Notes under the pieces: generated by a model
What the model was told of the DNA's origin: nothing
Seen by the model: the letters and a program-made list of their open reading frames with translations, nothing else
Databases searched by the model: none
Part shown: positions 5,867-50,041 of the stretch, one piece after another
Layout: every line of letters starts with the position of its first letter
Position numbering within the stretch: the stretch's first letter is position 1
Translations under genes and position numbers: made by a program
IMG/VR virus record: IMGVR_UViG_3300019999_000002
Location: 1 to 55,664 of that record
From: a virus
Reading direction: 5' to 3' (one strand)
DNA: 55,664 bases

Positions 5867-6712
5867 ATGCCCTATTCAGATCCAGAAATAGGCAGACAGA
5901 GGAAGCGGTTGTGGTTAAAAAATAACGCCGCAAAGGCCGCTCAATATGCCAGGAATTTCCGTCAAAGGCACAGGGATAGAATCAATAAAGAGGCTTACGA
6001 CAAGATACTCGCCACAAGACCTCCCAAACCAGAAAAATGCACCGCTTGTGACTCGAATCGAATTAGATGGTCCAATGGTGCCTGGGAATGCGCGGATTGC
6101 TGCCGTATATCCGCCGAAAAGAGATCGGTTGAGAGAAATAGGATTGAGCAGATAAACGAACGTTACCAATGCCTTATCCCTCTTTACGGACAGAAAGCAG
6201 CCGATATTTACCGAGGTCACGCCATAAAGCATCCTTACAAGCTCAGATATGGCCCACAAACCATCCACCGGCTCTGTCTGCCACGAGACTACCAGAAACT
6301 CTCAGAAGCCAATCTGGAACGTATTTATACTCTCAACGTCCTTCTCAAACTTCCATTCGGAAACATAGGCTGGACGTGTCAGAAATGCGGTGTTTATTCC
6401 GGAGAGTTCGCCTTCTTCGACATAGATCATATATCTCCAAGACTTAAAGGCGGTCACGGCAAAAAAGATAACCTCCAAGTTCTGTGCCCGAACTGCCACC
6501 GAAAGAAAACCTTGCTGGACGTTTTTAATCGAACAATTTGCCACACCGAATTACTTTCAATACATACACCGGAGCCTCGCGCTACCTACCCCGCTCCCAC
6601 GGTTAGACCCCTGTCCCATACGTCACGGGAACCGTCGCAACAACACCCTATAAGTGGCCAGAATCATGTACCGCCACGACCGCCCTCTGTGTCCCTAGAA
6701 GCCATAGCCTGA
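5867..6712 (+). CDS. HNH homing-type endonuclease
   Basis: 281 aa. It contains two zinc-binding half sites and a classical HNH core. An N-terminal CTAC...CADCC pair lies near residues 58-79. The core follows: CQKC at 171-174, DIDHISPR at 185-192 (D/H of the first strand), N202, and CPNCH at 207-211. HNH enzymes of this kind nick or cut DNA with one metal ion and often behave as free-standing homing genes. The C-terminal 60 residues are Pro/Ser/Thr-rich and look unstructured. It stands alone between the end of the virion block and the regulatory region, with no intron boundary visible. Confidence 0.9.
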   Translation: MPYSDPEIGRQRKRLWLKNNAAKAAQYARNFRQRHRDRINKEAYDKILATRPPKPEKCTACDSNRIRWSNGAWECADCCRISAEKRSVERNRIEQINERYQCLIPLYGQKAADIYRGHAIKHPYKLRYGPQTIHRLCLPRDYQKLSEANLERIYTLNVLLKLPFGNIGWTCQKCGVYSGEFAFFDIDHISPRLKGGHGKKDNLQVLCPNCHRKKTLLDVFNRTICHTELLSIHTPEPRATYPAPTVRPLSHTSREPSQQHPISGQNHVPPRPPSVSLEAIA

Positions 6713-20731: not shown

Positions 20732-21318
20732 AGGCTTTTACTTTCTATCGCGGCGCGGATTGATTGCTCCCATCGCATCCTTGGGGCTACGGCTTGATTG
20801 GTTCTGCCTTTGCGCGGTCGGTTTCCCCATCCAGTCCATCCACGGGCTCGGGGTTTGAAATTTTCAGCATGTTTCCATCCAGCCGCCTTGTAAATTGTTC
20901 CTGAGTGCGCGGATAAATCCTGATAGGAAATCAGCCGATTTACTTCCGAGAATCGTTTGAGAATGTCCCGGCGCATCCATCCAAGCATTCGGCTCGCGGT
21001 GAACTTGGGAGAATCATCACAAATTGCGAACCGACGCAACTCTAGCCACTCCCTTTGCGGCAGAAGCCGCGCAACCGGATTTGACCATGTAGCAACCGCG
21101 TAGATGAGGTTGCCGCACTCGGCCAGATAGCACACTCGGAAGTGGCTGTTTCCGATTTTAGGAAGCCGCGAATGCCATCGGGTGTTCAGCGCCCTGAACA
21201 CGGACTCATTGCACGCTGAGAATCGAAGTTGGAGCGCAGAGGTCGGAGTTGAACCGCCATATTCCGCTTGGAAAAGCGGACACCCTACCCTTGGATCATC
21301 TGCGCAAAATTCATTCAC
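20728..21318 (-). CDS. Mom-like DNA adenine modification protein
   Basis: 196 aa. The pattern LRRFAICDDSPKFTASRMLGW (approximately 95-114) and RLISYQDLSAHSGTIYKAAGW (128-148) matches Mom-family proteins, acetyltransferase-fold enzymes that in phage Mu add a methylcarbamoyl group to adenine and so block many restriction enzymes. The acetyltransferase-like core starts near residue 35. The tail is basic (GNRPRKGRTNQ). Start at 21318 overlaps the upstream stop. Function is assigned from recalled family motifs; the substrate here is inferred. Confidence 0.8.
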   Translation of the reverse strand: MNEFCADDPRVGCPLFQAEYGGSTPTSALQLRFSACNESVFRALNTRWHSRLPKIGNSHFRVCYLAECGNLIYAVATWSNPVARLLPQREWLELRRFAICDDSPKFTASRMLGWMRRDILKRFSEVNRLISYQDLSAHSGTIYKAAGWKHAENFKPRARGWTGWGNRPRKGRTNQAVAPRMRWEQSIRAAIESKSL

Positions 21319-27208: not shown

Positions 27209-27324
27209 CGGGACGTGAAGATTGCCGGAAATTCCAAAACTGCTAGTGGCAACGAATGGTTCACTCCATCGGCTATCTTCACAAATGGTGTCACTGGCAG
27301 TTTTGGAGCTTCAAAGGGATCGTC

Positions 27325-27978
27325 ATGCTTCAAAAAGGTTGTGTGTGCTCGCGCACATTCGTTGATTTGATAGGGAAAATATTTGGCCGGCTCACTGTAA
27401 TATCCTACTTGGGGAAAAACAAAAAGGCGCAGAGGGAGTGGGTTTGCCAGTGTGTCTGTGGGCAGAAGCTAACACTCACTACCGCTTCTATTTTTGCAGG
27501 ACATACAAATTCCTGCGGCTGCTTACAAAAAGAGCTTCTAATCGCCAGAAGGCGCATTCACGGAGAATCCAGATCCAAAGAATTTAGGATTTGGAGCCGC
27601 ATGAAAGGACGGTGCGAATCTCCGGCATATCATCACTTCAAAGACTATGGCGGTCGTGGAATAACAGTTTGTGAAAGGTGGCAGCGTTTCCAGAACTTCC
27701 TTGATGATATGGGAAGATGCCCTCCAAAAATGAGCATCGAGCGCAAGGACGTGAATGGGAATTATGAGCCGAGTAATTGCAAATGGGCAACAGCAATAGA
27801 ACAAGCGAACAACCGAAGGAACTCGCTCATTTTAACATTTAACGGCAAGACTCAGACCGTCTCTCAATGGAGCAGAGAACTCGGATTTATAGCGGGCACA
27901 ATCGGAAGGCGACTTGCTCGCGGATGGGCTGCTGGAAAAGCATTAAGCACACCACTCAAACCATCTCGCTGGCATTAA
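27325..27978 (+). CDS. HNH homing-type endonuclease
   Basis: 217 aa from the ATG at 27325, which follows AAAGGGA by 6 bases. An upstream ATG at 27256 would add a poorly typed 23 residues. IGKIFGRLTVISYLG, a CVCG/SCGCLQ zinc pair, YGGRGITVCERW, SIERKDVNGNYEPSNCKWAT and EQANNRR are the standard sequence of a phage homing endonuclease family. The C-terminal KTQTVSQWSRELGFIAGTI is an AP2/NUMOD-like DNA-binding tail. It is antisense to the flanking leftward genes and has its own promoter. Confidence 0.9.
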   Translation: MLQKGCVCSRTFVDLIGKIFGRLTVISYLGKNKKAQREWVCQCVCGQKLTLTTASIFAGHTNSCGCLQKELLIARRRIHGESRSKEFRIWSRMKGRCESPAYHHFKDYGGRGITVCERWQRFQNFLDDMGRCPPKMSIERKDVNGNYEPSNCKWATAIEQANNRRNSLILTFNGKTQTVSQWSRELGFIAGTIGRRLARGWAAGKALSTPLKPSRWH

Positions 27979-28148: not shown

Positions 28149-28610
28149 TCACTGGACGTGCGGACTTAACGTCTTTGGATTTCTCTCCGCCCGTCGTGCG
28201 GCAGTCGGAGTCGAGAAGGCAAGTCCCTGAGTCAGACCGTCACACAATCCGCCAGCGTAGTTCTGCATCGTGGCGGAGTTGGTTCCAAACTGACTGACGA
28301 CCGCTGCGTAGATTCCGAGGGCACCATTGACAATAATCACGGCCTCGGGGGTCTTGAGATTCGCGGCCCCAGAGGCTTCAATGGCGGCGACAATCATCGC
28401 TGGCGACGGATTAGTCCCGGCAGCTTCGGCGCAGACAATGGGTGTCACGGCTTCGAGATATGGCCTGGCGGTTGGCGCTTTCAGCACGCCCAACTCAACA
28501 CCTGTGGCGACGGCTTGGGTTTCTATAATTCGCTGAGTGGCGGGTGTGATGTTTTTGCAGCCAGTGAAGGCGAGAACTACAGCGGCGAATAGACAGTAGA
28601 TAATTTTCAT
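28149..28610 (-). CDS. Lipoprotein
   Basis: 153 aa. MKIIYCLFAAVVLAFTGC is a lipoprotein signal with lipobox AFTGC. The mature domain is Ala/Val/Thr-rich and helical (IIETQAVATGVELGVL). It is the second of three clear lipoproteins in this 4-kb segment. Function unknown; superinfection immunity or an outer-spanin role are possibilities. Confidence 0.8.
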   Translation of the reverse strand: MKIIYCLFAAVVLAFTGCKNITPATQRIIETQAVATGVELGVLKAPTARPYLEAVTPIVCAEAAGTNPSPAMIVAAIEASGAANLKTPEAVIIVNGALGIYAAVVSQFGTNSATMQNYAGGLCDGLTQGLAFSTPTAARRAERNPKTLSPHVQ

Positions 28611-30009: not shown

Positions 30010-30234
30010 TTATTTGTTCGCCTCAACCGCAGCCTTTAGCGGCTCCGCAGAAGCTTTAAGGTCAGCCGTGATGGCGGCCGCTTCCTTCTGGACCGAGCCA
30101 GCAGTTCCAAACGCTTTGATAATCCTCGCCTCACTATCAGCCACGTCCTGCTTGGTTGCGAGTGGGCGCTGCTTCCGGTCCTCCCTCATCTCGTGGACGA
30201 GGGCGAAAATCGCTTCAACAAGCTTATCAATCAT
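30010..30234 (-). CDS. Small helical protein
   Basis: 74 aa. MIDKLVEAIFALVHEMRED, then charged and Ala-rich helices. It is paralogous in style, not clearly in sequence, to the 76-aa gene next to it. Coupled to the lipoprotein upstream. Confidence 0.7.
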   Translation of the reverse strand: MIDKLVEAIFALVHEMREDRKQRPLATKQDVADSEARIIKAFGTAGSVQKEAAAITADLKASAEPLKAAVEANK

Positions 30235-30662
30235 TTGGTCCTTTCAACAGGCATTGGCGGCATAGGAGCTTGAATGGTGGAAAGGATGTGCCTCATCTTC
30301 GGCCCAGGCAAGTGATTCGTCTGCCATTTCATCGCGTCCATGCCGTAGGTGCCAGCCGTCCCCTGGCCGCAGACCCATCCGCCTTGAGATTCGATGAGTT
30401 GTGCTGCGCCGAAAAACTCCTGCTTGCAGCATTTACAGTGAAAGTGCGCCGTGGCATTCACGACGATGCCGGCCAGCATGTAGTTGGTTCCTGTTGGCTC
30501 TAGCCGCACCACGACCTGCTCAGAGTTGTCGTGGCAGTAGGGGCAATGAGTCGAGAGTTTGAGCGCGGGTTGTGCAGGAGGGGCAACGGCCTTCGGAGCC
30601 TCGTGATAAACGGCTACACAGCCAGCGAACAGGAGGGGAATCAGGAAAATCAATCTCGGCAT
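30231..30662 (-). CDS. Lipoprotein with zinc ribbon
   Basis: 143 aa. Signal MPRLIFLIPLLFAGC with lipobox LFAGC. The mature part has a Pro-rich linker, then CPYCHDNSE...HCKCCKQEF, a zinc ribbon, and a polar C-terminus with GTYGMDAMKW. A lipid-anchored zinc ribbon is unusual. Third lipoprotein of the segment. Confidence 0.75.
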   Translation of the reverse strand: MPRLIFLIPLLFAGCVAVYHEAPKAVAPPAQPALKLSTHCPYCHDNSEQVVVRLEPTGTNYMLAGIVVNATAHFHCKCCKQEFFGAAQLIESQGGWVCGQGTAGTYGMDAMKWQTNHLPGPKMRHILSTIQAPMPPMPVERTK

Positions 30663-30841
30663 TGAGGAAGCTTAGATTTTGTGGCCTTTTTGTCAAGGGG
30701 GCGGTTCCAAAGGTAGGCTATGAGTTCGCGGGCTGCAATACGAGGGGGAGAATCTCGCCTGTCGGCATTCGAGAACGCCTCTGTGATAATCCCCATTAAC
30801 TGATACTCAGCGTCGGCTTGCGTTTGCGGCGGGTTGTTCAC
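30650..30841 (-). CDS. Small hypothetical protein
   Basis: 63 aa. GIITEAFSNADRRDSPPRIAARELIAYLWNR. Overlaps the lipoprotein start by 13 bases and the holin-like gene by four. Confidence 0.65.
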   Translation of the reverse strand: MNNPPQTQADAEYQLMGIITEAFSNADRRDSPPRIAARELIAYLWNRPLDKKATKSKLPQCRD

Positions 30842-31170
30842 GCATCCTTTTTTACCGTCCCGTCTGGGGCGACATCGGTTTTCTTCACGAACGCCGTCTT
30901 GATCTCCGCCTTGACCTGCTCGGCGGTCATTGCCGTGACATTGGCCAGATCGGCAGCGGTCTGCGCGGCGTCCTCTTTGCTCTGGCTCTTATTCGCATCG
31001 CCCGCAGCGAGCAGGCCGATTCCACCAAGGACCGTTGCGATGAAACTGCCCCATAGCATTTCATCAGCGGTTCCGTGTTTGATGGCAAACACCAGCTTAA
31101 CGATGCCAGTGCAGATCATCATCACGCCGGCGCTCGAAGTTTTCCAGTTAGCGAGTAGGTTTTTTATCAT
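30838..31170 (-). CDS. Holin-like membrane protein
   Basis: 110 aa from the ATG at 31170. MIKNLLANWKTSSAGVMMIC with two hydrophobic segments (AGVMMICTGIVKLVFAI and SFIATVLGGIGLLAAGDA) separated by a short polar loop, then a long Lys/Ala/Glu tail. The pattern 'NWKTTxxGxxxIxxG...GGIGLLxAxDA' is typical of phage holin families. It sits in a coupled chain with a spanin-like gene and a receiver-domain gene. Confidence 0.8.
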   Translation of the reverse strand: MIKNLLANWKTSSAGVMMICTGIVKLVFAIKHGTADEMLWGSFIATVLGGIGLLAAGDANKSQSKEDAAQTAADLANVTAMTAEQVKAEIKTAFVKKTDVAPDGTVKKDA

Positions 31171-31466
31171 TTCCAAAAGTGTTTGATTGCCATCCCCAGC
31201 GAAAAGAAAATCACCGCCCACGCGCCGCGCAAAACCCAAATGGCCCCCTTGGCTTGATCCTCTTTGCTGCGGATATTTTCCCTGATAGCGGTCATTTGCG
31301 GACGCAAACCATCGGGTGGAGTATAGATGTCGTTCATAATGCGAACGAGATTTTGCAGCATCCCAGGAGTGCCCCGCATGTCGCCGCGCATCGCCACTTC
31401 CATCTCTTTATATTGAGATTCGACGACGGCGATGCGTTCCTCAATGGCTTCCATTCGCTCAATCAT
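31167..31466 (-). CDS. Spanin-like coiled-coil membrane protein
   Basis: 99 aa from the ATG at 31466. An N-terminal coiled coil (MEAIEERIAVVESQYKEMEV) and a single C-terminal span (WVLRGAWAVIFFSLGMAI) ending KHFWK. Such tail-anchored coiled-coil proteins are common in phage lysis cassettes. Overlaps both neighbours. Confidence 0.7.
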   Translation of the reverse strand: MIERMEAIEERIAVVESQYKEMEVAMRGDMRGTPGMLQNLVRIMNDIYTPPDGLRPQMTAIRENIRSKEDQAKGAIWVLRGAWAVIFFSLGMAIKHFWK

Positions 31467-31890
31467 ATCGCGGCACAAGAAACAGCTTTAGTGTCTCGAA
31501 AGTAATTGGTTTTGGCACGATGACGACGGCCCCTTTGTCGAGCGCCCTGCTCACGCACGGGTTGCCTGGATAACCAGTCACCATGATGACGCGAGCGCCC
31601 TCGTGCATTCCAACGGTCTTGTCCAGAATTTCTCCCCCGGTCAATTTCGGCAGCATTTGATCGAGAAAAATTACGTCGTAGTTGTTGGCTTTGATTTTCT
31701 CCACGGCAATAGCTCCGTCTTGCACCAACTCAATCACGCATTGAAACTTGTCGAGCAGCCGCTTGAACAGATCCCAGTCAACCGCGTCATCTTCGACCAC
31801 GAGCACCTTCGGCAACGGCGAGAACTTGAATATGAGTCCTTGCAGGAACTCGATATGCTTTTTCAGTTGTTCGGCTTCGGTCATTTCCAT
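31459..31890 (-). CDS. CheY-like receiver domain protein
   Basis: 143 aa; ATG 31890 or 31884 (ATGA overlap). Complete receiver: acidic pocket E33-D34-D35 (LVVEDDAVDW), phospho-acceptor D77 (VIFLDQMLP), T105 (IMVTGYPG), K127 (IVPKPIT). A 25-residue N-terminal helix precedes it. There is no output domain. In bacteria such stand-alone receivers relay phosphate to partners. Here it lies between a fibre-like gene and the holin/spanin-like genes. Phage copies are rare; it may intercept host signalling. Confidence 0.9.
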   Translation of the reverse strand: MEMTEAEQLKKHIEFLQGLIFKFSPLPKVLVVEDDAVDWDLFKRLLDKFQCVIELVQDGAIAVEKIKANNYDVIFLDQMLPKLTGGEILDKTVGMHEGARVIMVTGYPGNPCVSRALDKGAVVIVPKPITFETLKLFLVPRYD

Positions 31891-33257
31891 TGCTCCAATT
31901 TCACCCGAAACGTTCCGCTCGCCGGGTCAATCGCGCTTACAAGTTGGTCGTTGTGGAAACGAACGTAAACGAAAGTATTCGACACCCAAGCTGAATACAT
32001 TGAGTTGGCCTGCATTGATCCGGCTGGCGGGGAGGCAAAAGCAAAATCCCCGACGTTCACGTTGGCAACATTTACAAGCAGGTCAGAGGTTGTCCCCGCC
32101 GCCGTGCTTGGAAAGTCGAGCGTGACATTTGTGACGACTACGTTGGTGAGTGTCACGAGAGTTGCTGCCGCCCAAGATACTCCCCCTATTGTGGTAGTCA
32201 CATTGCTGCATGACACAACCCCTCCTAGATTTCCATTCACGTCCTCTACTTTCAGCGTTGTCGCGCTTGAAGAAACGAGCGTAGGACCATTCGCAAACGC
32301 AAACCAGGTGGATTCTCCGTTCGCACCGTTATTAAGAAACTGTGTCGCTGTGACCCTTCCAGAAACATTTACCGCGCCGCCGAAAGTAGAGGCTCCTGTT
32401 ACATGCGCAGTCGCCATTTTCAGGTTGCCTGTATTGGTCCCACTTCCATTCGTGCTCCAAACAAATCCTAGTCCAGCAGCGGCATAATTGGTGAGCGTAA
32501 CTATCCCGCTTGAATTTATGTCAATTGAAACGCCGTTGTTTGTGAAGAGGCAAATCGCGTTCACGTTTTTGTTGGTTTCTATGAAGCCAGGAGTCGTACC
32601 TGTCAGCGTCACCGCCCCGCTTCCCGAAGATACCCATGTAACTCCAGCAGGACCGGATGCGCTGACGCTCGTGACTGTGCCGCTGCCTTTGGCATCTATC
32701 TGAGTCTGAATCGCGTTCGTGACGTTGTGAACGTAGCCAAGCTCGGTTGCGGTCGTGGTGCTCGAAACAATTTTAGGAGGGGATTCGCTGTCTGAAACCA
32801 GAGCAGTAGAAGCGCTAAGATTGGACCCGCGAATGCTGGGCGCAATTAGATTGCCAGAGGAGTCAATTTGAAATTGTCCAGCACCTCCAAATACCGCCGA
32901 TCCGCCTACAAAGATTTCTGCTGTGGTCGGATTCCCAAACGATAGGTTTCCAAAAAGAATGCCACCCGCGTTAAGAGAAAGATATGTCCCGCTTAAATCT
33001 GGAATGTCACTAAACGAGAGTGTCGTCCCGCTCGTCTCGCGCCCCTGCGCGTCGAAAGTAACTTTGGTGTACTCGCCTGCCGTGCCGGTGTTCTTGAGAG
33101 TTAAAACTCTAGTGCCGCTCGCCGTGGTTCCGTCCCCTGTGATCGTAGGGTTGGCGTTGGTGTCCCACACGTTGCGCTCCAGGGGCGGCGGCATCCCAGC
33201 CCACAGCGACGGCAAAACCAACAGAATCAGGAGATATGCAAGAGTGTAGCGAACCAT
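31881..33257 (-). CDS. Fibre-like protein with signal peptide
   Basis: 458 aa. The N-terminus MVRYTLAYLLILLVLPSLWA is a typical signal peptide. The mature part has low-complexity beta repeats (NPTITGDGTTASGTRVLTL; GTVTSVSASGPAGVTW; NVSGRVTATQF) known from tail fibres and adhesins. The C-terminus (SAWVSNTFVYVRFHNDQLV) is compact. Tail fibres normally are not exported, so the signal-like start is unusual. It may be an adhesin-like secreted protein. Confidence 0.75.
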   Translation of the reverse strand: MVRYTLAYLLILLVLPSLWAGMPPPLERNVWDTNANPTITGDGTTASGTRVLTLKNTGTAGEYTKVTFDAQGRETSGTTLSFSDIPDLSGTYLSLNAGGILFGNLSFGNPTTAEIFVGGSAVFGGAGQFQIDSSGNLIAPSIRGSNLSASTALVSDSESPPKIVSSTTTATELGYVHNVTNAIQTQIDAKGSGTVTSVSASGPAGVTWVSSGSGAVTLTGTTPGFIETNKNVNAICLFTNNGVSIDINSSGIVTLTNYAAAGLGFVWSTNGSGTNTGNLKMATAHVTGASTFGGAVNVSGRVTATQFLNNGANGESTWFAFANGPTLVSSSATTLKVEDVNGNLGGVVSCSNVTTTIGGVSWAAATLVTLTNVVVTNVTLDFPSTAAGTTSDLLVNVANVNVGDFAFASPPAGSMQANSMYSAWVSNTFVYVRFHNDQLVSAIDPASGTFRVKLEQWK

Positions 33258-33688
33258 AGCGTAACCTTGTTTAGAACTTTAGTCATTCGTGACCAGCGCG
33301 AGGACTTGGCCTCGGTTAAAATTGGTTGCGCTATCTCCGGAGATTGCGGCGGTTCCAGGATGGGAACGACCATCGGTGCGGCTGGCAGCGTGCGATTGGC
33401 AACGGCCATCACGGGATCAGGTGCATTGGCGGTTATCACCTTCTGCCAATCATGGGCACCAGACGGGTCAAGATCAACCCAAAGATTGCCAGCGTTGTCG
33501 TAGGCTGCCCCTCCCGAAATCGTCGCGCCAGTCGGATCGCCAAATAGCACATTGCCCGAACCGCCGCCACCGCCACCACCAGCGCACGCCGCTGCCAAAA
33601 GGCATTCGCGCAATTGCCGGTCGCTCAACCTCGCGTAGCCATTGGCATAAGCGAGATCAAGGAGAGTTTGGGAATCGCAGGCGGGCAT
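33227..33688 (-). CDS. LSDR-module protein 1
   Basis: 153 aa. N-terminal module CDSQTLLDLAYANGYARLSD...CLLAAAC (first 36 residues), then a Gly run, and a beta-like domain that reads like a virion appendage (NVLFGDPTGATISGG). C-terminus basic and hydrophobic. Overlaps the fibre-like gene by 31 bases. First of three tandem genes with the same N-terminal module. Confidence 0.75.
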   Translation of the reverse strand: MPACDSQTLLDLAYANGYARLSDRQLRECLLAAACAGGGGGGGSGNVLFGDPTGATISGGAAYDNAGNLWVDLDPSGAHDWQKVITANAPDPVMAVANRTLPAAPMVVPILEPPQSPEIAQPILTEAKSSRWSRMTKVLNKVTLWFATLLHIS

Positions 33689-33691
33689 AAG

Positions 33692-34159
33692 TCATGGGAA
33701 CACGATTATCTCGATTGAGGCTCCAATCATTTCGTTATCTTGGCCGGATAGTGCCGCATCTGCCACAATCACAGAAATGACATTGTCAGAAATTCTTTTC
33801 GACACAACTAACACACCAATACCACCCCAACCATTCACGGTTGAACCTGCATTTGCCATTAAAAATGTTTTGGAAGCGGGGAATGCTCCAATAAGCGTAC
33901 TACTATAATCTCCAACGGCGTTTCTAGTCCACGCCACAGTTCCTCCTAGCGTATTTTGCAAGACTGTAGCTACTGGAGCATTGGTTCCGGTTTGTGTGAG
34001 CAGCGCCCGATAGACTTTTGTTCCTGACGGATAGGAACCTCCCCCTCCCCCGCCAGCGCAAGCCGCCGCAACTAGACATTCCATCAATCCGCGTTTGGAT
34101 AACTTGCTGTAGCCGTTCGCCTGAGCGAGCGCGATTAGTGTTGCAGCGTCACAGGCCAA
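33692..34159 (-). CDS. LSDR-module protein 2
   Basis: 155 aa. Module CDAATLIALAQANGYSKLSK...CLVAAAC, the same Gly run, then a beta-rich domain (YRALLTQTGTNAPVATVLQN... VISVIVADAALSGQ). That C-terminal domain resembles small virion decoration or fibre-tip domains. It is 3 bases before gene 1. Confidence 0.75.
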   Translation of the reverse strand: MACDAATLIALAQANGYSKLSKRGLMECLVAAACAGGGGGGSYPSGTKVYRALLTQTGTNAPVATVLQNTLGGTVAWTRNAVGDYSSTLIGAFPASKTFLMANAGSTVNGWGGIGVLVVSKRISDNVISVIVADAALSGQDNEMIGASIEIIVFP

Positions 34160-34203: not shown

Positions 34204-34410
34204 TCAGCATATCGCAGCCAGGAAACAATTGTCCAGATCGCGGTCGCTCAGTTTGTGGTAATCCTTGGAGTTGTCGGTTGCAGTCTGCGCGTTCCACCCG
34301 AGCCCTACGCAATACACCGCCGCCAAACACAGAAGCAAATCCCGGTCGCTCAACTCGCCGTATTTATTGGCGGTTGCAGCGTTTAACAGAGTTGCAGCGT
34401 CACAAGCCAA
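34204..34410 (-). CDS. LSDR-module protein 3, module only
   Basis: 68 aa with two copies of the module: CDAATLLNAATANKYGELSD...CLAAVYC and a shorter DYHKLSDRDLDNCFLAAIC. It has no appended domain. Lies 44 bases upstream of gene 2. Confidence 0.7.
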   Translation of the reverse strand: MACDAATLLNAATANKYGELSDRDLLLCLAAVYCVGLGWNAQTATDNSKDYHKLSDRDLDNCFLAAIC

Positions 34411-35227: not shown

Positions 35228-36046
35228 ATGAATGAAAATACCGCACGTCCCGAGATTACTCCCGAATACCTTGCCGAGCAAGGATTGTCGAAAACCTTTC
35301 CAGAACGATTTTGGAAACGAGTCTTTATCACGCCTACACACTGGCTTTGGGATGGAATGCGGCGAGCCCCGATGAATCACGGAAGCCTGTGGCGGGGCGT
35401 AAGGAATCCAAGAACAGGAAAGTGGCAATGGATGATTTATGCCCACGTCGCGTCTTGGCTTTTGAACCGAGGGCCAATTCCAGAAGGAAAATGGATTTTG
35501 CATAAATGTCCTGGGAAGCACATTCCTTGGTGCGTCAATCCAGAGCATCTTTATCTTGGCTCTGCAAAAGACAATAGCCGAGACCAACTTGCCCAAGGCA
35601 CGATGTATCTGATAAAAGGCCATAAGCACAACTCTCGCGGAGAACGATCTACAGTTTCCAAGCTTACTGAGGCTCAGGTTTTGGAGATTCGAAAAATTTA
35701 TTCCGGTCGTACCGGACAACAAAGCGAACTGGCAAAACAGTACGGAGTGGCACAGCCAACGATTGAAAACATTCTCGTTGGGAAAAACTGGAAGCACATG
35801 GGAGGGGCCGCTCCCGGACTCATTGCGAGACGCGAAAGAATAGCGCGAGATCATTCTCGAATTCGGCGTCCGTTTCCCATGACGGGAGAAAATGGACCAC
35901 TTCACAAACTGACTCGATTTCAGGTAAAGGAAATACGCGATAAATACACAGGTGAGCGCGGCCAACAGAGTAAACTCGCCCGAGAATACCGAGTTCGACA
36001 AGGAACTATTTGGTATATCGTTAATAATGTTACTTGGAAGGGGTGA
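35228..36046 (+). CDS. HNH endonuclease with two HTH repeats
   Basis: 272 aa. HNH_3-type core: H92 in WILHKCPGKHIPWCVNPEH, N104, H107 and LYLGSAKDN. Then two related DNA-binding repeats: LTEAQVLEIRKIYSGRTGQQ (about 144-188) and LTRFQVKEIRDKYTGERGQQ (about 229-272), each like a NUMOD/HTH module. It lies antisense between the capsid-like gene and its downstream genes, and its stop falls inside the hairpin at 36041-36068. Confidence 0.9.
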   Translation: MNENTARPEITPEYLAEQGLSKTFPERFWKRVFITPTHWLWDGMRRAPMNHGSLWRGVRNPRTGKWQWMIYAHVASWLLNRGPIPEGKWILHKCPGKHIPWCVNPEHLYLGSAKDNSRDQLAQGTMYLIKGHKHNSRGERSTVSKLTEAQVLEIRKIYSGRTGQQSELAKQYGVAQPTIENILVGKNWKHMGGAAPGLIARRERIARDHSRIRRPFPMTGENGPLHKLTRFQVKEIRDKYTGERGQQSKLAREYRVRQGTIWYIVNNVTWKG

Positions 36047-37967: not shown

Positions 37968-38188
37968 AACCGCCGCTCGTAAAAGTCAAAATTCCCACTG
38001 CTCCGAAATCCATGCGGCGTAAATTTGAGAAGATTCTGGAGGATGAGTTCAGCAGATTCCTGCGAGAACGGCCCAAGCGATGGGTGCGGATTATTAGAAA
38101 AGAGAATCTTAGAATTCGCAAGCAGCGAGGGGAACATCCACACCATGCAACATGGCCAGTGGTTCGAGTTATTAAACGACTACCATGA
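37964..38188 (+). CDS. Small basic protein
   Basis: 74 aa, Lys/Arg-rich (RRKFEKILEDEFSRFLRERP). It links the HTH gene and the glycosyltransferase gene by 4-base overlaps on both sides. Role unknown. Confidence 0.65.
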   Translation: MKPPLVKVKIPTAPKSMRRKFEKILEDEFSRFLRERPKRWVRIIRKENLRIRKQRGEHPHHATWPVVRVIKRLP

Positions 38189-39489
38189 GCGACTACCTTC
38201 TGCTTGGCCGCAACGGTGATCTGATTTCCGCTCTACCCTTTCTCAAAGCAGAAGCCGATGCCGACACGAAGCCGAACCTCGTTTGCTCCAATCAGCACAG
38301 CCAGCTTTTTGATGGCGTGAGTTACGTCAATGCCGTGCCGTTCGACGGGGGTGTTCACATGCTGCGCGAAGGCTTCGAGTTTGCGAAGTCTAAATTCTCC
38401 GCAGTAAAATCCCTGCAAGTCATCGGTAACACGAAGGACGTTGAGGAAATCACTTATCGCCCCGCCGGCCAAACTTCGGCGCGGATGACTTCCTTTGTAA
38501 AGGAGATTTGGAAGCTGGCTGGTAAAATGCCGTTGTGGGATGACGTGCTGCCACTGGTATTTGACAGGCGAGATAAAGAACGTGAATCCAAGCTGATTCA
38601 ATCGGTCGAACTTGGCCGAGAAGGCAAATGGAAAAAGCCGCTCATGCTGGTTTCGATTGAAGGCCATACCAGCCCATTTTCTTACGCAAAAATACTTCGC
38701 AAAGTTTTGCAATTGGCCTTTGGCCATAAATTCACCGTACTGGAACTGCCGAAGGCTGAACGCATATATGATCTCCTGGGCCTTTACGAACTCGCGTCGG
38801 TGCTAATCGCAGTTGACAGCGCCCCACTGCATCTCGCCAGGGCGTGTCCCTCGCTGCCCGTGATCGCGCTCACAAATGACAAACCAATGCTCTGGAATGG
38901 CAGCAGCCCGCAGCCGAACCACATTTTTTATTGCCGCTATTCCGACTTCCCGAATCGCATTGATGAAATGCTGGCTGTGATTCAGAGCTATAAACACTGG
39001 CCGACTCAGGCATTGAATGGAGACGCTGTTTTAGTCTGGAACGCCTACGACGGAGGATTCCCAAAATTGTTGGGCAATCTGTTTGTGGCCACGCCGGTTT
39101 ATCCGGGGATGATGGGCAAGGACAGCGTGACCGTGCTGCGCGACGAAAAGCGCATTCCCTATCTCAAAGATTCTATCCGATTGGGGATGCAGCGGGCAAA
39201 GGATTCAACTCATGTCGCCATTTGCCGAAGTGACGTGGTTTTCTCTGAGGGAGCAGTTCAACGATCCAAGGCCCATCACGCTTCCTATGCTTATGCCATA
39301 AAGGATGGAATGTTCTTGCCGGTCTGTGACTTTTTTTGCGCCAGAAAATCATTTTGGAAGTCTGTGCTGGACCAAATTCCCGATTTACTTTTAGGCACAG
39401 ACATCTACTGGCCGCAGGCGCTCTGGAATATCTTTCATGGGCGCGGGGCATCGGATATAACCGGCATCGTCACGAGGGAAGCGAAATGA
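38185..39489 (+). CDS. GT9-like glycosyltransferase, two-domain
   Basis: 434 aa. Residues 1-260 have the heptosyltransferase (GT9/GT-B) pattern: YLLLGRNGDLISALPFL at the start and VLIAVDSAPLHLARA at 206-220. Residues 270-434 form a second domain (VATPVYPGMMGKDSV; ICRSDVVFSEG) of GT-A flavour. Such enzymes add heptose or related sugars to LPS or other glycans. First enzyme of the glycan cassette. A phage copy may modify the host surface, or decorate virion or DNA. Confidence 0.8.
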   Translation: MSDYLLLGRNGDLISALPFLKAEADADTKPNLVCSNQHSQLFDGVSYVNAVPFDGGVHMLREGFEFAKSKFSAVKSLQVIGNTKDVEEITYRPAGQTSARMTSFVKEIWKLAGKMPLWDDVLPLVFDRRDKERESKLIQSVELGREGKWKKPLMLVSIEGHTSPFSYAKILRKVLQLAFGHKFTVLELPKAERIYDLLGLYELASVLIAVDSAPLHLARACPSLPVIALTNDKPMLWNGSSPQPNHIFYCRYSDFPNRIDEMLAVIQSYKHWPTQALNGDAVLVWNAYDGGFPKLLGNLFVATPVYPGMMGKDSVTVLRDEKRIPYLKDSIRLGMQRAKDSTHVAICRSDVVFSEGAVQRSKAHHASYAYAIKDGMFLPVCDFFCARKSFWKSVLDQIPDLLLGTDIYWPQALWNIFHGRGASDITGIVTREAK

Positions 39490-39698
39490 ATTCTACTAAC
39501 GAGTTTAGAGATGCAGTCTGCTATAAAAAAAAGGATGGATCGTTCGCTATATTTGATTCATTAGACGCAATCTCAGAATCGCAAAGACAAACCCTTACTG
39601 GAGAATATCAACTTGTGAAAGTAAGTTGGAACAACGGCCAACCCCTCGTTAGTTACGGATATTCAAAAATCTCCATTGTTGATATTGATAAACGATGA
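39486..39698 (+). CDS. Small hypothetical protein
   Basis: 70 aa from the ATG at 39486 (ATGA). DAVCYKKKDGSFAIFDSLDA and KVSWNNGQPLVSYGYSKIS look beta-rich. Not recognised. Confidence 0.65.
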   Translation: MNSTNEFRDAVCYKKKDGSFAIFDSLDAISESQRQTLTGEYQLVKVSWNNGQPLVSYGYSKISIVDIDKR

Positions 39699-39748
39699 TC
39701 CCCGACCATCTTCCTCGGTTAATGCCTGTTTATCTTTTGCTGAAATGA
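39695..39748 (+). CDS. Bridging micro-ORF of 17 codons
   Basis: ATG at 39695 overlaps the previous stop (ATGA), and its stop overlaps the next ATG (ATGA, 39745-39748). The peptide is MIPDHLPRLMPVYLLLK. This places the micro-ORF in a perfect start/stop relay. Confidence 0.45.
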   Translation: MIPDHLPRLMPVYLLLK

Positions 39749-40692
39749 TTGACATCCCCGCAGAACCGCCGCGCCTGCGTCATAACCGGGAATTGCTTGC
39801 CGCGATGAAGCCGATGGAATCTCGCTATCCCCAGGCGGCAGATCAGGTCGAACGCATCCCGCTGGACACTTCCAAGCTTCCCCCCTTTGCCTACAATCCA
39901 TCCATCGCCCGCATCAATGGCAAAACATGGATGAGTTTCCGCTACCACTTCGGCGCCGATTACCGGACCCGAATTGCCATGTCTCAGATCGTTGACGGCA
40001 TAGCGCAATCGCCGCAAGACCTGCCGATGACCGGCTACAGCCTTGAAGATGCGCGGCTGTTCACCTTTCACGGAGAGACATGGATTTCGTGGGTTGAATC
40101 TAACTTTGAAGGCCAGGCTTCTCCGAAATCAATCGTCAAATATGCCCAGCTTGAGCATGGCTTCAAACTCGGCCGCATTTATCAAGTGAAAGCCGGGGAC
40201 AACGATTTCTCGGGAATGCAGAAAAACTGGTGCTTCTTCGAGTCCGACGAGAATCTTTTTTGTGTCTATCGCTCGGAACCCGATTACTGCGTGTTCCAGA
40301 TTCAGGGAGATACCGTCATCAACGAATACAAAACGCTTTCGAGGCGCTGGCCTTACGGCCCTATCCGAGGCGGTAACATCGTTGGGTATGGAGATAAGTT
40401 GCTGCGGTTTTTCCATTCGCGAACAGAATTCGGATCGACCAAGCGCGAGACCCGTTACTATGTCGGCGCGGCCTTGATGGAACGCGTACCGCCCTTCTCC
40501 GTTCTTAAAGTCAGTCAGAGACCAATCATCTACGGCTCGGAACTTCCGAAATACGACTGCTTCCATTTCAAGCCTGGAGTTGTGTTTCCAACTGGAGCAC
40601 TGAACGATGCGCGAGGATGGATTGTGTCTGTTGGGATTAACGATGCGGCATGTCATCTTATTCGAGCATGGGAAAATGATTTGAATTTGTGA
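39745..40692 (+). CDS. GH130-like glycoside phosphorylase
   Basis: 315 aa from the coupled ATG at 39745; an upstream in-frame start at 39676 is possible. NPSIARINGKTWMSFRYH, YSLEDARLFTFHGETW, MQKNWCFFESD, GPIRGGNIVGYGDKLLRFFH and FHFKPGVVFPTGAL match five-bladed-propeller glycosidases of the GH130 group, often mannoside phosphorylases. It may also be a non-catalytic propeller. Second enzyme of the cassette. Confidence 0.75.
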   Translation: MIDIPAEPPRLRHNRELLAAMKPMESRYPQAADQVERIPLDTSKLPPFAYNPSIARINGKTWMSFRYHFGADYRTRIAMSQIVDGIAQSPQDLPMTGYSLEDARLFTFHGETWISWVESNFEGQASPKSIVKYAQLEHGFKLGRIYQVKAGDNDFSGMQKNWCFFESDENLFCVYRSEPDYCVFQIQGDTVINEYKTLSRRWPYGPIRGGNIVGYGDKLLRFFHSRTEFGSTKRETRYYVGAALMERVPPFSVLKVSQRPIIYGSELPKYDCFHFKPGVVFPTGALNDARGWIVSVGINDAACHLIRAWENDLNL

Positions 40693-41372
40693 TCGAACAA
40701 TTCCTCAACTATGGGAATCTTCGGCTGCTGAATCTGCCTGGCGGAAAAGGGGTTTACGATGAAGTGCTGGTTGAGGACTGCTACCACAAAGACAGGATTC
40801 CCCAAGGCTCAATCGTCATTGATGTCGGCGGCTACTACGGCGAGTTTGGAATCTGGTGCGCCGTAAACAAAGGTTGCAGGGTCAGGATGTTTGAGCCGTC
40901 TCCTGTTTGGATCATAGCCCGGTTCAACGCTGAATTGAATAACGCTAAAATTGGAATCCATCACGTTGCCATTGCTAAAAACGAAGGGACGCGAGATTTC
41001 AGACATGTCCCCACCAGCCCGGTAAATTCAAGTTTGGACGTAGTTAGGGAGAGCACAACCTGCTTTGACTCACTTCACACGGTATTATCGAAAGTGGAGT
41101 GCTTTACTCTCGGAACTCAAATTTCAGGAATGCAAAGCGTCTTTGGAAACCATCTTCCTGTGTGCGTGAAGCTGGACTGCGAAGGCGGAGAGCAAGAGAT
41201 ATTCGATGACGAATCCTGGCTCGACAAAACGAGCATCGTTATGCTTGAGTTCCACTACAAAGACGGGCCTAGATACATGGACGCTTTGAAACGTCACGGA
41301 TTCAAGGTTGAGACCACCGACCCAAACCCGGAGGCGTGGCGGGCGATAATTTATGCAACCAAACTCGGTTAA
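40689..41372 (+). CDS. FkbM-family methyltransferase
   Basis: 227 aa from GTG 40689 (GTGA). SIVIDVGGYYGEFGIW (41-56) is the SAM-binding motif, and VCVKLDCEGGEQEIF plus MLEFHYKDG are FkbM-family motifs. FkbM enzymes O-methylate sugars and similar hydroxyls. This fits glycan capping. Confidence 0.85.
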   Translation: MIEQFLNYGNLRLLNLPGGKGVYDEVLVEDCYHKDRIPQGSIVIDVGGYYGEFGIWCAVNKGCRVRMFEPSPVWIIARFNAELNNAKIGIHHVAIAKNEGTRDFRHVPTSPVNSSLDVVRESTTCFDSLHTVLSKVECFTLGTQISGMQSVFGNHLPVCVKLDCEGGEQEIFDDESWLDKTSIVMLEFHYKDGPRYMDALKRHGFKVETTDPNPEAWRAIIYATKLG

Positions 41373-41375
41373 TTT

Positions 41376-41978
41376 ATGAACAATATCGTAAACGGCGTTG
41401 ACTACGCAAAGATTGGTCCGGACCCAGTCCGCGTAGGCGCGGGAGGAAACTCGCCATTGAAACGGATGCTGGACCATCCCGATCACGGGCAATCAATTAT
41501 TGCCGAGGTCATTCGCCGAGAACGCCCAAGAGTAATGATCGAAACTGGAGTCGAGAGCGGGTATAGTAGCGAGCATTACTTGGTGGCGATGGATAGCGTG
41601 GCAAATGGACATCTCTTTTCGTGCGACCCAACTCCCAGTGGATTCTACGAAGCTTACCCCATCGTTCATCCGCGATTCACGTTCATCAGGAAGCGCAGTC
41701 AGGATGCGCTGGACGATATATTCCGTCGGACGGGGCCGATTGATATTTTCTTACATGACAGTAATCACGATTGGGAGACACAGACCTGGGAATATCATTG
41801 GGCATGGGCTAACGTCCGTTCAGGTGGAATTATTGCCAGCGATGACACCAAATGGGGAATAACAATTCCTGGAGTTGGATCGCTTTCTCATGGTGCTTGG
41901 GACTTCTTCCTGCATAGGCACGGTATTTTTGGAAAGGATCAGCCAGCCAACAACTTCCGATGGGTGCGGAAACCATGA
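41376..41978 (+). CDS. Class I SAM methyltransferase
   Basis: 200 aa. VMIETGVESGYSSEHYLV (53-70) is the SAM loop. DIFLHDSNHDWETQTWEYHW and GGIIASDDTKWG match CmcI/Methyltransf_24-type enzymes. TAATTTATG start; not coupled. A second O-methyltransferase of the cassette. Confidence 0.8.
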   Translation: MNNIVNGVDYAKIGPDPVRVGAGGNSPLKRMLDHPDHGQSIIAEVIRRERPRVMIETGVESGYSSEHYLVAMDSVANGHLFSCDPTPSGFYEAYPIVHPRFTFIRKRSQDALDDIFRRTGPIDIFLHDSNHDWETQTWEYHWAWANVRSGGIIASDDTKWGITIPGVGSLSHGAWDFFLHRHGIFGKDQPANNFRWVRKP

Positions 41979-42625
41979 TCCAAATTGGCAAATACAAAAT
42001 CCGTGCCTTCGTGATGATCGTCCCGGAGTTCCCGGAGAAAACCGAGGCCATCCAGAAGCATCTTCGCAGCGTCGGCATCGAGGCTGAGGAATTCCCATGC
42101 ATCTGCGCTTACGACAAACTGGTTGCTCCTGCCGAGTTAGTGTCGGGCCTGACCACTCTCAATACTTACGAAGTGGACGCTCCGGGAAGCGGTTATAGGA
42201 TCGGGCCAAAGGGAACAGCCCTTTGCGTGAGCTTCCTGATGTTCTGGACAGCAGCAATGTTCATGGCGGAGGAGTATTTCTGGTTCATTGAATGGGATGC
42301 ATTATTTCATCCCGATTGGCGAAAGCGAACCGAGCAGGCACTAAAGGACGTTCCGCCCGATTTCGATTTCTTGTTTCTGGGATCGTGTTGCACCAAAGAT
42401 AAGCCGACAAAGCACATCAAAGGCGAAGTGTTCGAGGTAAAATATCCGATGTGCAATCATTCTCAGATCATCGCCAAGAAAGCCATGCCGACCCTCCTGC
42501 GGACCCAGCGCAAGATTTATGCGCCTGCCGATATCAGTTTGGCGGTTTGTGCATTTCCTCATCTTAAAATTTACACTATGCTCCCTAGATGTTGCGATCA
42601 GAGTAATACTATAATTCCTCCATGA
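41975..42625 (+). CDS. GT25-like glycosyltransferase
   Basis: 216 aa from the ATG at 41975 (ATGA). EEYFWFIEWDALFHPDWRKR suggests a metal-binding acidic pair, and LFLGSCCTKDKP, NHSQIIAKKAMPTLL follow the order of LPS-type GT25 or related enzymes. Closes the glycan cassette. Assignment is moderate. Confidence 0.6.
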   Translation: MIQIGKYKIRAFVMIVPEFPEKTEAIQKHLRSVGIEAEEFPCICAYDKLVAPAELVSGLTTLNTYEVDAPGSGYRIGPKGTALCVSFLMFWTAAMFMAEEYFWFIEWDALFHPDWRKRTEQALKDVPPDFDFLFLGSCCTKDKPTKHIKGEVFEVKYPMCNHSQIIAKKAMPTLLRTQRKIYAPADISLAVCAFPHLKIYTMLPRCCDQSNTIIPP

Positions 42626-43266
42626 ATATTAAACCCGGAGATAGATTCGTAAGGCTTGTTGCGCTGAAAGATGCTGGTGTACAGTCTCAAAAACGTTTAT
42701 GGCTTTGCAAATGTGATTGCGGGCAAGAAAAAGTTGTTCGTGCCGCAAGCCTCATTAGCAAAAACACCACTTCATGCGGATGCTATAGCCGCGAGATTTC
42801 CTCCAGGAATGGGAAAAGAAAAACGACACACGGCATTTCTAAAGAGCCTGTGTTTTCAAGTTGGAACAACATGCGTGAAAGATGCTACAATCCAAAGCAC
42901 GACCATTATAACCGCTATGGAGGAAGGGGAATTTCCATTTGTGCCTCTTTAAGATCGTCGCCACTAAACCTAAAGGCGTTGCTCGGAGATAGGCCGCCCG
43001 GTAACACGCTGGACAGAATTGACAACTCCTTAAATTATTGTTGTGGGAAATGTTCGGAATGTTTGGAACATAACTGGCCACTGAACGTTCGCTGGGCAAC
43101 GTGGACACAACAACAAAGAAACAAGAACAACAATCGGCAGGTTTGTATAAGCGGAATTTTCAAGACCGCTCCAGAATGGGCGGAGATGTACGGCATCAAC
43201 CAAAGCACAATCTATAGCAGGCTGCATCGAGGAAAAACGGGTGCCGCCCTGTTAACACACCCCTAA
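42622..43266 (+). CDS. HNH homing-type endonuclease, coupled
   Basis: 214 aa, same family as the gene at 27325: a CKCDCG...SCGC zinc pair, YGGRGISICASL, LDRIDNSLNY, NVRWATWTQQQRN. Its ATG overlaps the glycosyltransferase stop (ATGA), so it is co-translated with the cassette, unlike the other HNH genes. The segment after DRIDNS contains CCGKCSECLEHN, an extra zinc-like insertion. Confidence 0.9.
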   Translation: MNIKPGDRFVRLVALKDAGVQSQKRLWLCKCDCGQEKVVRAASLISKNTTSCGCYSREISSRNGKRKTTHGISKEPVFSSWNNMRERCYNPKHDHYNRYGGRGISICASLRSSPLNLKALLGDRPPGNTLDRIDNSLNYCCGKCSECLEHNWPLNVRWATWTQQQRNKNNNRQVCISGIFKTAPEWAEMYGINQSTIYSRLHRGKTGAALLTHP

Positions 43267-47871: not shown

Positions 47872-48197
47872 GTGAACAGGGCCACGCCACAGCCTTTACA
47901 CGGCTTCTTGCCTTGCAGCACTGGGTTTGGTGCACCGGCATTGCTCCCATCCGTGTCATAGCACCATTCGATCATTCCGCCAAGCCGGTAGCAGGTGAAG
48001 TTTTCGATGTCGGCCAAGGACTCATCAAGACTGGCACGCGGAAGCCCGTTGGCTTTGCGAAACTGATAGACAGCCTGTGCCTGATCCTCGATGAGCGGCA
48101 CGCTGGCAAATTTTCGCGTAATCCCCTTCTGCTGAATATACACGTAACCGCCTGGTGGAGTGATTTCAAAGCTTCTCAATTTGTAACGAGTGGGCAT
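47868..48197 (-). CDS. Small protein between terminase and portal
   Basis: 109 aa. A beta-rich N-terminus (LRSFEITPPGGYVYIQQKG), then a helix and CYDTDGS...CKGCGVALF near the end. 'GGYxYxQ' and the Cys pair resemble small neck-region proteins of other phages. Unknown role. Confidence 0.75.
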   Translation of the reverse strand: MPTRYKLRSFEITPPGGYVYIQQKGITRKFASVPLIEDQAQAVYQFRKANGLPRASLDESLADIENFTCYRLGGMIEWCYDTDGSNAGAPNPVLQGKKPCKGCGVALFT

Positions 48198-50041
48198 TAA
48201 GAATGAACGAGCAAATTATCTTTGATGGCTTTATCCCATGCTTCGGCGTCCGCGTCAAAGGAATCTTCGCCGCTGTCTTGGCCGGCAACAGCATCTCCAA
48301 GCCTCGCAATCAGAAATCCTCTTTGCCTGGCCCCCTCAATGCCTATCGCTAGGGTATCGAACAAATCAGGACTTTTGCCCAGTCTCCGCTTCAAATCCTC
48401 CTTCTTTTTCGGGTCAGACTTCGGCTCGACCTGAATTTTGTTGCCAGCCACCATCTCATAGATACGGGCGCAGCCTTCCGCCATCACTTCCTCTGGCAAT
48501 TCTCGAAGCTGGTTTGCTTCGACACAGTAGCGGACTGAGAACCACATTTCCGAAACGAATTTAGAGTAGTGCTCATAACACATTTTTAGCCGTTTGGTCC
48601 CATTTTCTTCCTCAACAAAAAGGTCTTGCCGGACAGGTCTCTTTGTTGGCTGATCTCCGCTATCCACGGCAACAGGTGGCTTATTTCCAAACTTGATTGC
48701 GAATGGACCGCCGAGCGTTCCCTTGCCGACGGAGTCATAAAAGCAGTCCTCTGACGCTACGCCGTAATTGTTGAGTTCTTCAGCCAGAATATCTGCGATT
48801 TGAAGCTCAACGTCTCGGTCTGTAGAAAGGTCAAATTTGTAAACTCGGTAGCCGACAATTCGAATCAGGATTTCTCCTTCGACAGACTCGCCCCATTCGA
48901 GACACATGCCAACGCAACGGTCATCTCCGCCATAAGTCGGGTCCAGTGAGTAAACACGCTTCAATGGTGTTCCCTTCCAAACAGCTTTCTCCAAAGCATG
49001 ATGTTCCCGGCAAAGTTGCCGGGTAATAACTCTTGAATGAGCGAAGGCAACGCGCATCACGCCTTTAACGAGCCGATAATACTCGAAAGATTCAGGGCCG
49101 TGATCGTGCGCTATTCGGGCGGCAAACTTCCGGCCAACGAGCTTTGGATATGGTTCTGGAGAACCATCGGGGACATCAAAATTAGGAGAATCCGTACCCA
49201 CGAGATTGATGCACTTGGCCCCCATGAATTTCGTTTTCCAAACCTCAGTCTTTTGTGGTTCAGGATGCGAATTCCAACCATCCCCAGGTTCGGCGGTTTT
49301 GCCCAGTTCATCATCGGGATCGTGTTTTGGATTGCCGCTCCCGATGACTTTAACATTGCCGTTTGAGAACAGATGCGGCCACGAGGCAGAGAAAGCTTCT
49401 TGCATGAACTGGAGTTCGTCGGCGACGTAGAAGATATATTCCTGCTTCAAACCGGCTAGAATGCCAAGCCCGACCCAGCGCCCGCCAACATAACAAGGGC
49501 GCCCTATTACACCTTTCCTCATATCCCGAACCCCATCGTCCAATAGATTATCCGTTGAGAGCGCCCTTTTGTGGTCAATTAAGTTCCCTGGAATCCATGG
49601 GTATAGCTCTTTTGCCTGCTTCCAGAGCATTTTGACTTCGCCCCAAACTCCGATGTCCAGCTTGTCCATGTTCACCGTGGAAAGCACAACGAGCGTGTTA
49701 TCGGGGCGCGCAAAATAATTGAGCAGAACGTACTCACAGGCGTGAGAAGTTTTCTGAGTGCTGGCGGCCCCAAGCAAAACGGTTACGTCATTCTCTACGA
49801 AATTGCGGTACATCAGGTCGGTCCAGCGATGACGATAACGGTTCGGCCATGCAAGCTTTCGGGCATTCATCAAATGCTCGAACATACCGAGCCCGACCCG
49901 TGCGCCGTTTGGAGCGGTGAAATAGCCTCCGTTGGCTATGAATGCCAGTTCGATTTCGAGATCATCCTGATCATAGGGTATGCTGAGCCCGTATTTGATT
50001 CTTTTGGCAGTTGACATTAGCAGTGTTCCATGATTAGGCAT
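48197..50041 (-). CDS. terL: Large terminase subunit
   Basis: 614 aa (590 if ATG 50017 is used). ATPase: a Walker-A variant LLGAASTQKTS at 89-99, strand-DE Walker B YIFYVADEL at 202-210, and a coupling GSGNP at 234-238. Nuclease: SLDPTYGGDD at 365-374 and later FYDSVGKG and SPDLFDTLA. The Walker A has Ala-Ala-Ser-Thr-Gln-Lys-Thr instead of GxxxxGKT, common in terminases. It packages DNA into proheads with the portal. A matching small terminase was not found next to it. Confidence 0.9.
   Translation of the reverse strand: MPNHGTLLMSTAKRIKYGLSIPYDQDDLEIELAFIANGGYFTAPNGARVGLGMFEHLMNARKLAWPNRYRHRWTDLMYRNFVENDVTVLLGAASTQKTSHACEYVLLNYFARPDNTLVVLSTVNMDKLDIGVWGEVKMLWKQAKELYPWIPGNLIDHKRALSTDNLLDDGVRDMRKGVIGRPCYVGGRWVGLGILAGLKQEYIFYVADELQFMQEAFSASWPHLFSNGNVKVIGSGNPKHDPDDELGKTAEPGDGWNSHPEPQKTEVWKTKFMGAKCINLVGTDSPNFDVPDGSPEPYPKLVGRKFAARIAHDHGPESFEYYRLVKGVMRVAFAHSRVITRQLCREHHALEKAVWKGTPLKRVYSLDPTYGGDDRCVGMCLEWGESVEGEILIRIVGYRVYKFDLSTDRDVELQIADILAEELNNYGVASEDCFYDSVGKGTLGGPFAIKFGNKPPVAVDSGDQPTKRPVRQDLFVEEENGTKRLKMCYEHYSKFVSEMWFSVRYCVEANQLRELPEEVMAEGCARIYEMVAGNKIQVEPKSDPKKKEDLKRRLGKSPDLFDTLAIGIEGARQRGFLIARLGDAVAGQDSGEDSFDADAEAWDKAIKDNLLVHS

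Follow-up and report, generated by a model that had tools for sequence, protein, structure and literature searches.

The receiver gene and its neighbours

The DNA analysed here, called the window throughout, is an IMG/VR virus record of 55,664 bases and belongs to a large uncultured family of ~55-kb phages. For the core proteins of this family there are hardly any matches to Pfam or PHROG families, and the window capsid has no match among deposited phage records. On the minus strand a gene for a stand-alone receiver protein is located between a fibre-like gene and a series of small genes for predicted membrane proteins (Table 1).

Table 1. Features of the window, in order of position, and the basis of their assignment (TM, transmembrane).
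Feature	Position	Strand	Basis
Second putative lipoprotein, lipobox-like LAFTGC	28149..28610	-	Weak PHROG match, E 0.0036
Putative lipoprotein, CxxC pairs, lipobox-like LLFAGC	30231..30662	-	Sequence
Two-TM holin-like protein, NWKTSSAG motif	30838..31170	-	Hydropathy; homologues in G001 and G027
Small protein with coil and C-terminal TM (coil-TM)	31167..31466	-	Hydropathy; G023 homologue; junction sequence
Receiver, stand-alone, CheY/Spo0F-like	31459..31890	-	PF00072 profile; AlphaFold; PDB fold matches
Fibre-like gene	31881..33257	-	Weak PHROG tail-fibre match, E 3.9e-5
Terminase	48197-50041		

The open reading frame of the receiver is 143 aa long, but translation more likely begins with the ATG at 31884 (141 aa), because GGAG sits 8 nt upstream of it. 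Residues 29-135 match the Pfam Response_reg model PF00072 with an E-value of 3.3e-20 and 72.7 bits, the cut-off being 30.2 bits, and cover model positions 1-107 of 111. A six-frame search recovers the same match at this locus, and at E<=0.1 PF00072 was the only Pfam model to match the protein. It also matches PHROG 731 (E 1.3e-16) and, at E<=0.001, 141 distinct sequences of solved structures. An AlphaFold model built on a 21-sequence alignment has the alternating beta-alpha fold of receivers (pLDDT 89.4), and in a Foldseek search of the PDB with this model every top match is a receiver. The identity as a receiver is far beyond chance, and the profile match, the model and the fold matches bear out the complete, CheY-like, stand-alone domain claimed in an earlier note on this DNA. 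The residues named in that note are likewise intact and in their places: the acidic pair E33/D34 (plus D35), the phospho-acceptor D77, T105 and K127. The nearest homologue has E33/D34, D77, T105 and K127 as well, and in the alignment of 21 receivers there is no exception to D34, D77, G120 or K127.

The receiver shares its fold, catalytic residues and stand-alone architecture with CheY, Spo0F, CpdR and DivK (PF00072). Unlike these it is phage-encoded and lies in a late membrane-gene operon, and it has an extra N-terminal helix (residues 5-23 of the model), a short alpha5 of about 5 residues and no aromatic switch residue, the K-3 position (Tyr106 in CheY) being occupied by I124. Fold and architecture would allow a CheY mimic acting on the flagellar motor or the chemotaxis of the host, a model which we find barely credible. 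The aromatic Tyr106 and the full alpha4-beta5-alpha5 face of CheY have no counterpart here, so that the CheY output face is altered; furthermore the best matches come from a wide range of receiver types, no CheY equivalog scores above its cut-off, and the gene is grouped with membrane genes.

Receiver domains are found in other tailed phages, e.g. the CheY-like protein A0A6J5RMP2 of an uncultured Caudovirales, A0A6C0R1B8 of Alteromonas phage PT11-V22, and PHROG 731. In the structure match the phage proteins of this kind are 17-20% identical to the window receiver. Close homologues outside the present phage family were found neither in IMG/VR, nor in phage or plasmid records, nor in genomes; non-family proteins reach an identity of about 35% at best (36% at most in genomes, in a partial match). 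Jumbo phages carry another receiver-like domain, cREC, a cyclic-phosphate-processing receiver whose links are with NAD/ADP-ribose enzymes and in no case with two-component systems (PMC7824862). This identity was rejected since the window receiver matches ordinary PF00072 only, and no NAD/ADP-ribose enzyme was seen among the window proteins scanned.

The genes around the receiver are tightly packed. The stop of the fibre-like gene (31881) overlaps the receiver start, the coil-TM gene overlaps the receiver stop or directly abuts it, depending on whether it starts at 31466 or at 31454, and the junction between the coil-TM and the holin-like gene is an ATGA overlap. These overlaps support co-expression of the receiver with the small membrane genes. 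The coil-TM protein consists of a hydrophilic, probably coiled stretch followed by a C-terminal TM segment at about residues 72-90 of the 95-aa form. The holin-like protein of 110 aa begins MIKNLLANWKTSSAG and has a basic N-terminus and hydrophobic segments from residues 12 and 38; it fits the size and topology of a holin, which is small with 1-3 TM segments and a charged end, and its homologues in G001 and G027 are 39-42% identical. The lipoprotein gene closest to it may encode an outer-membrane part of the module, and the product resembles in kind that of L077:9097-9369, with which it has no BLAST similarity. One segment of the fibre-like gene is 48% identical in G002.

Three tandem small genes on the same strand (33227-33688, 33692-34159 and 34204-34410) share a common head, e.g. 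ACDAxTLxxLAxANGYxKLSxRxLxxCLxAAxC, and two of the three have a poly-glycine hinge beyond which they diverge. Related heads occur in G001, G003 and G006 (by tblastn) and in G002 and G027 (by eye). They are possibly interchangeable fibre adaptors.

Receivers in related phages

Relatives were gathered by means of the major capsid protein (MCP) and then of portal, tail and terminase alignments. The MCP search gave six close relatives (64-75% identical), and of 373 terminase relatives in IMG/VR 80 were kept. PF00072 was searched in 86 family records, 34 of which are at least 49 kb long, and a receiver is present in four: the window, G023 (IMGVR_UViG_3300021289_000002), G013 (IMGVR_UViG_3300035092_000017) and G057 (IMGVR_UViG_3300036850_000029). 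A PF00072 match in G058 was not counted as a receiver, being sub-threshold and within a 699-aa ATPase-like protein. The receiver gene is entirely absent from the six close relatives and must therefore be regarded as accessory.

The earlier note proposed a search for the same synteny in other phages, and G023 has it: fibre, receiver, coil-TM and holin-like genes in identical order and with like overlaps. Its receiver is 53% identical to that of the window over 118 residues, with Thr at the position of I124, and its coil-TM protein, in the same place, is 36% identical (E 1e-11). The core proteins of the two phages are only 21% (MCP), 30% (portal) and 33% (terminase) identical. That the receiver/coil-TM pair is more alike than these proteins suggests either strong constraint or joint transfer between lineages. 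For the receiver codons we obtained dN 0.45 and dS about 1.9, a ratio of about 0.24, where dS is near saturation. With this ratio and the intact residues a decayed gene was rejected; nor was a decayed copy, which the earlier note had named as a counter-finding, seen in the relatives, the six close ones lacking the gene and G023 having an intact one. A cellular contaminant or a chimera was rejected as well, since G023 shares the four genes in the same order.

In G013 the receiver is part of a 198-aa protein composed of an intact receiver, a helix, the motif SWRTTLGG and a predicted TM helix. SWRTTLGG also opens the holin-like proteins of G013 itself and of G023. The likeness of the fused TM domain to the holin-like genes extends over about 11-15 residues only (E 0.01-0.04), and the domain was modelled poorly (pLDDT 50-64). 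The fusion gene directly follows a TM-coil gene and is overlapped at its end by a holin-like gene. The G057 receiver is much more divergent (14% identical), comes after fibre-like genes and overlaps a coil+TM gene. The active-site positions are retained in all four phage receivers, G013 having Ser for Thr.

All four receivers thus adjoin a membrane gene of the coil+TM type, and none is located elsewhere in the 86 records. If window and G023 are counted as one, there are probably three separate receivers, all beside such a gene. As a rough estimate, from ~70 genes per genome and a few such positions, the chance of this adjacency is about 1 in 1000.

A model in which the receiver works with the fibre, the two being coupled in translation, would have it affect fibre folding, receptor handling or superinfection. 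The overlap of fibre stop and receiver start in both the window and G023 speaks for this, as do the fibre-like genes upstream in G013 and G057. However, the window fibre has no detected similarity to its fibre-like counterparts in G023, G013 or G057, whereas homologues of the coil-TM partner occur in two of these three genomes, and we consider a fibre partner very unlikely.

Character of the membrane module

The earlier note placed the receiver in a lysis neighbourhood with spanin- and holin-like genes. The arrangement, a fibre-like gene upstream and small TM genes downstream, was confirmed, but the lysis genes as such were not: no endolysin, holin or spanin family match was obtained among the neighbours of the receiver. 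The holin-like protein has no holin family match in Pfam, PHROGs or NCBIfam, the coil-TM protein has no spanin match, and the Pfam XhlA and holin models do not match the module genes. The label spanin-like does not fit the coil-TM protein, because an i-spanin has an N-terminal TM segment followed by a periplasmic coil and here the TM segment is C-terminal. M15_3, Amidase_2 and SLT domains were searched for in the window and are not present (G057 has one SLT match, below threshold), and no endolysin was recognised, the main open reading frames of the window being unmatched in the profile scans. A scan for WKTT-type holin motifs gave only the copies already known, and its strict hydropathy threshold missed the G001 copy. 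Judged from the size, topology and order of the genes, the term lysis neighbourhood is still a reasonable inference.

Two known systems are of interest in this connection. The PBSX-type lysis pair XhlA/XhlB consists of a coil with a C-terminal TM segment followed by a small holin-like gene; the coil-TM and holin-like pair of the window shares this arrangement, but a receiver is added and any role in lysis is putative. The LytSR two-component system controls the holin-like genes cid/lrg, and LytR acts by DNA binding. Here, too, two-component signalling occurs together with holin-like proteins, but the window receiver, unlike LytR, lacks a DNA-binding domain and would have to exert any effect through contact with proteins.

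Models for the function of the receiver

The model which we tentatively favour is that the phage uses a phospho-receiver to regulate its own late membrane module, probably a holin with accessory lysis proteins, according to the signalling state of the host. The overlapping genes suggest that the receiver would be translated together with the coil-TM and the two-TM holin-like proteins from a single late message. D77 would then take a phosphate from a histidine kinase of the host, a phosphotransfer protein or acetyl phosphate. A host source is proposed on the grounds of the intact catalytic residues and the failure to find a viral kinase; if the receiver is phosphorylated, the phosphate would have to come from the host. 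In the four receiver-bearing genomes no histidine kinase ATPase domain (HATPase_c) was found and no credible Hpt, the one Hpt match being sub-threshold and stop-containing; a viral partner kinase or Hpt was accordingly rejected. The phosphorylation-dependent surface and the N-terminal helix may bind either the holin-like protein or the tail-anchored protein, the latter by its cytoplasmic coil, a contact suggested by the conserved pair and by the receiver-TM fusion in a relative. The binding would alter the timing of membrane opening, or keep the membrane shut.

A fuller version of this model is a lysis clock gated by phosphotransfer, in which a viral receiver, either free or joined to a TM protein of the holin-like kind, turns the state of the host kinases into holin triggering by direct protein contact and has been recruited repeatedly within one phage family. 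This version we hold to be unlikely.

Several points speak against regulation of a lysis module by the receiver. The neighbours have no lysis family match and no endolysin was recognised in the searches described above, and the likeness of the fused TM domain in G013 to the holin-like genes is short and its model poor. The position behind the fibre gene varies between relatives and might pick up genes of unrelated function. Moreover, relatives such as G027 have the coil-TM and holin-like genes as a pair but lack a receiver; the receiver would thus be an addition to an existing module and not needed for it. The receiver-free module of G027 (L094 4715-6270) has a protein with a coil and a C-terminal TM segment, a WKTT two-TM protein and then lipoprotein-like genes, and should be useful as the base state of the module.

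The main rival model postulates a decoy for host kinases. The receiver would act late as a phosphate sink or competitor on histidine kinases or phosphotransfer proteins of the host and shift host behaviour, i.e. envelope stress, motility or development, and its adjacency to membrane genes would reflect a variable late-gene slot only. The intact catalytic residues and the lack of a viral kinase agree with such a decoy, and the slot between fibre and membrane genes does hold other genes in relatives. There are precedents as well: alphaproteobacteria have lone receivers that restrain a kinase (PMC9430884), and PIT4, a phage protein, binds a large number of kinases of its host (PMC10714779). We find the model doubtful in that it predicts neither the TM fusion in G013, nor the coil-TM partner in G023, nor the overlapping coil+TM gene in G057.

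A third model dispenses with phosphorylation: the receiver would be a membrane scaffold and serve the coil-TM protein as an adaptor on the cytoplasmic side or as an antiholin-like partner. It would explain the short alpha5 and the added helix of the modelled receiver, the helix additions in G013 and probably G057, and the residues found at the Tyr106 position in the window and G023, neither of which has the usual aromatic switch. The active-site positions retained in the four phage receivers would be superfluous in a pure scaffold, and we regard this model as improbable.

By current understanding, holin sequence is the main determinant of lysis timing in tailed phages, and only a few external inputs are known, e.g. 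T4 lysis inhibition. With a receiver linked to the membrane module, as in the favoured regulation model, a phage could read the two-component network of the host without any phage-encoded sensor. Phage receivers were known before, and in the open-access literature we found none tied to a holin or a holin-like module, so the coupling to a membrane module appears to be new. The comparison of four genomes turns what was a curiosity of a single genome into a testable pair, a receiver and its coil-TM or holin-like partner.

Some other features of the window should be mentioned. A tRNA-like gene with a two-base anticodon reported by ARAGORN (21234-21306, minus strand) is probably spurious. An HNH endonuclease gene (5867-6712) is inserted among the structural genes, where 27256-27978 and 35228-36046 are possible homing-type genes, the latter with partial homologues in G001. 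Between the MCP and portal genes a block on the opposite strand (38185-43266, plus strand), partly conserved in G001 and G002, codes for FkbM and Methyltransf_24 methyltransferases and has a weak GH130-like match; it looks like a glycan-modification island.
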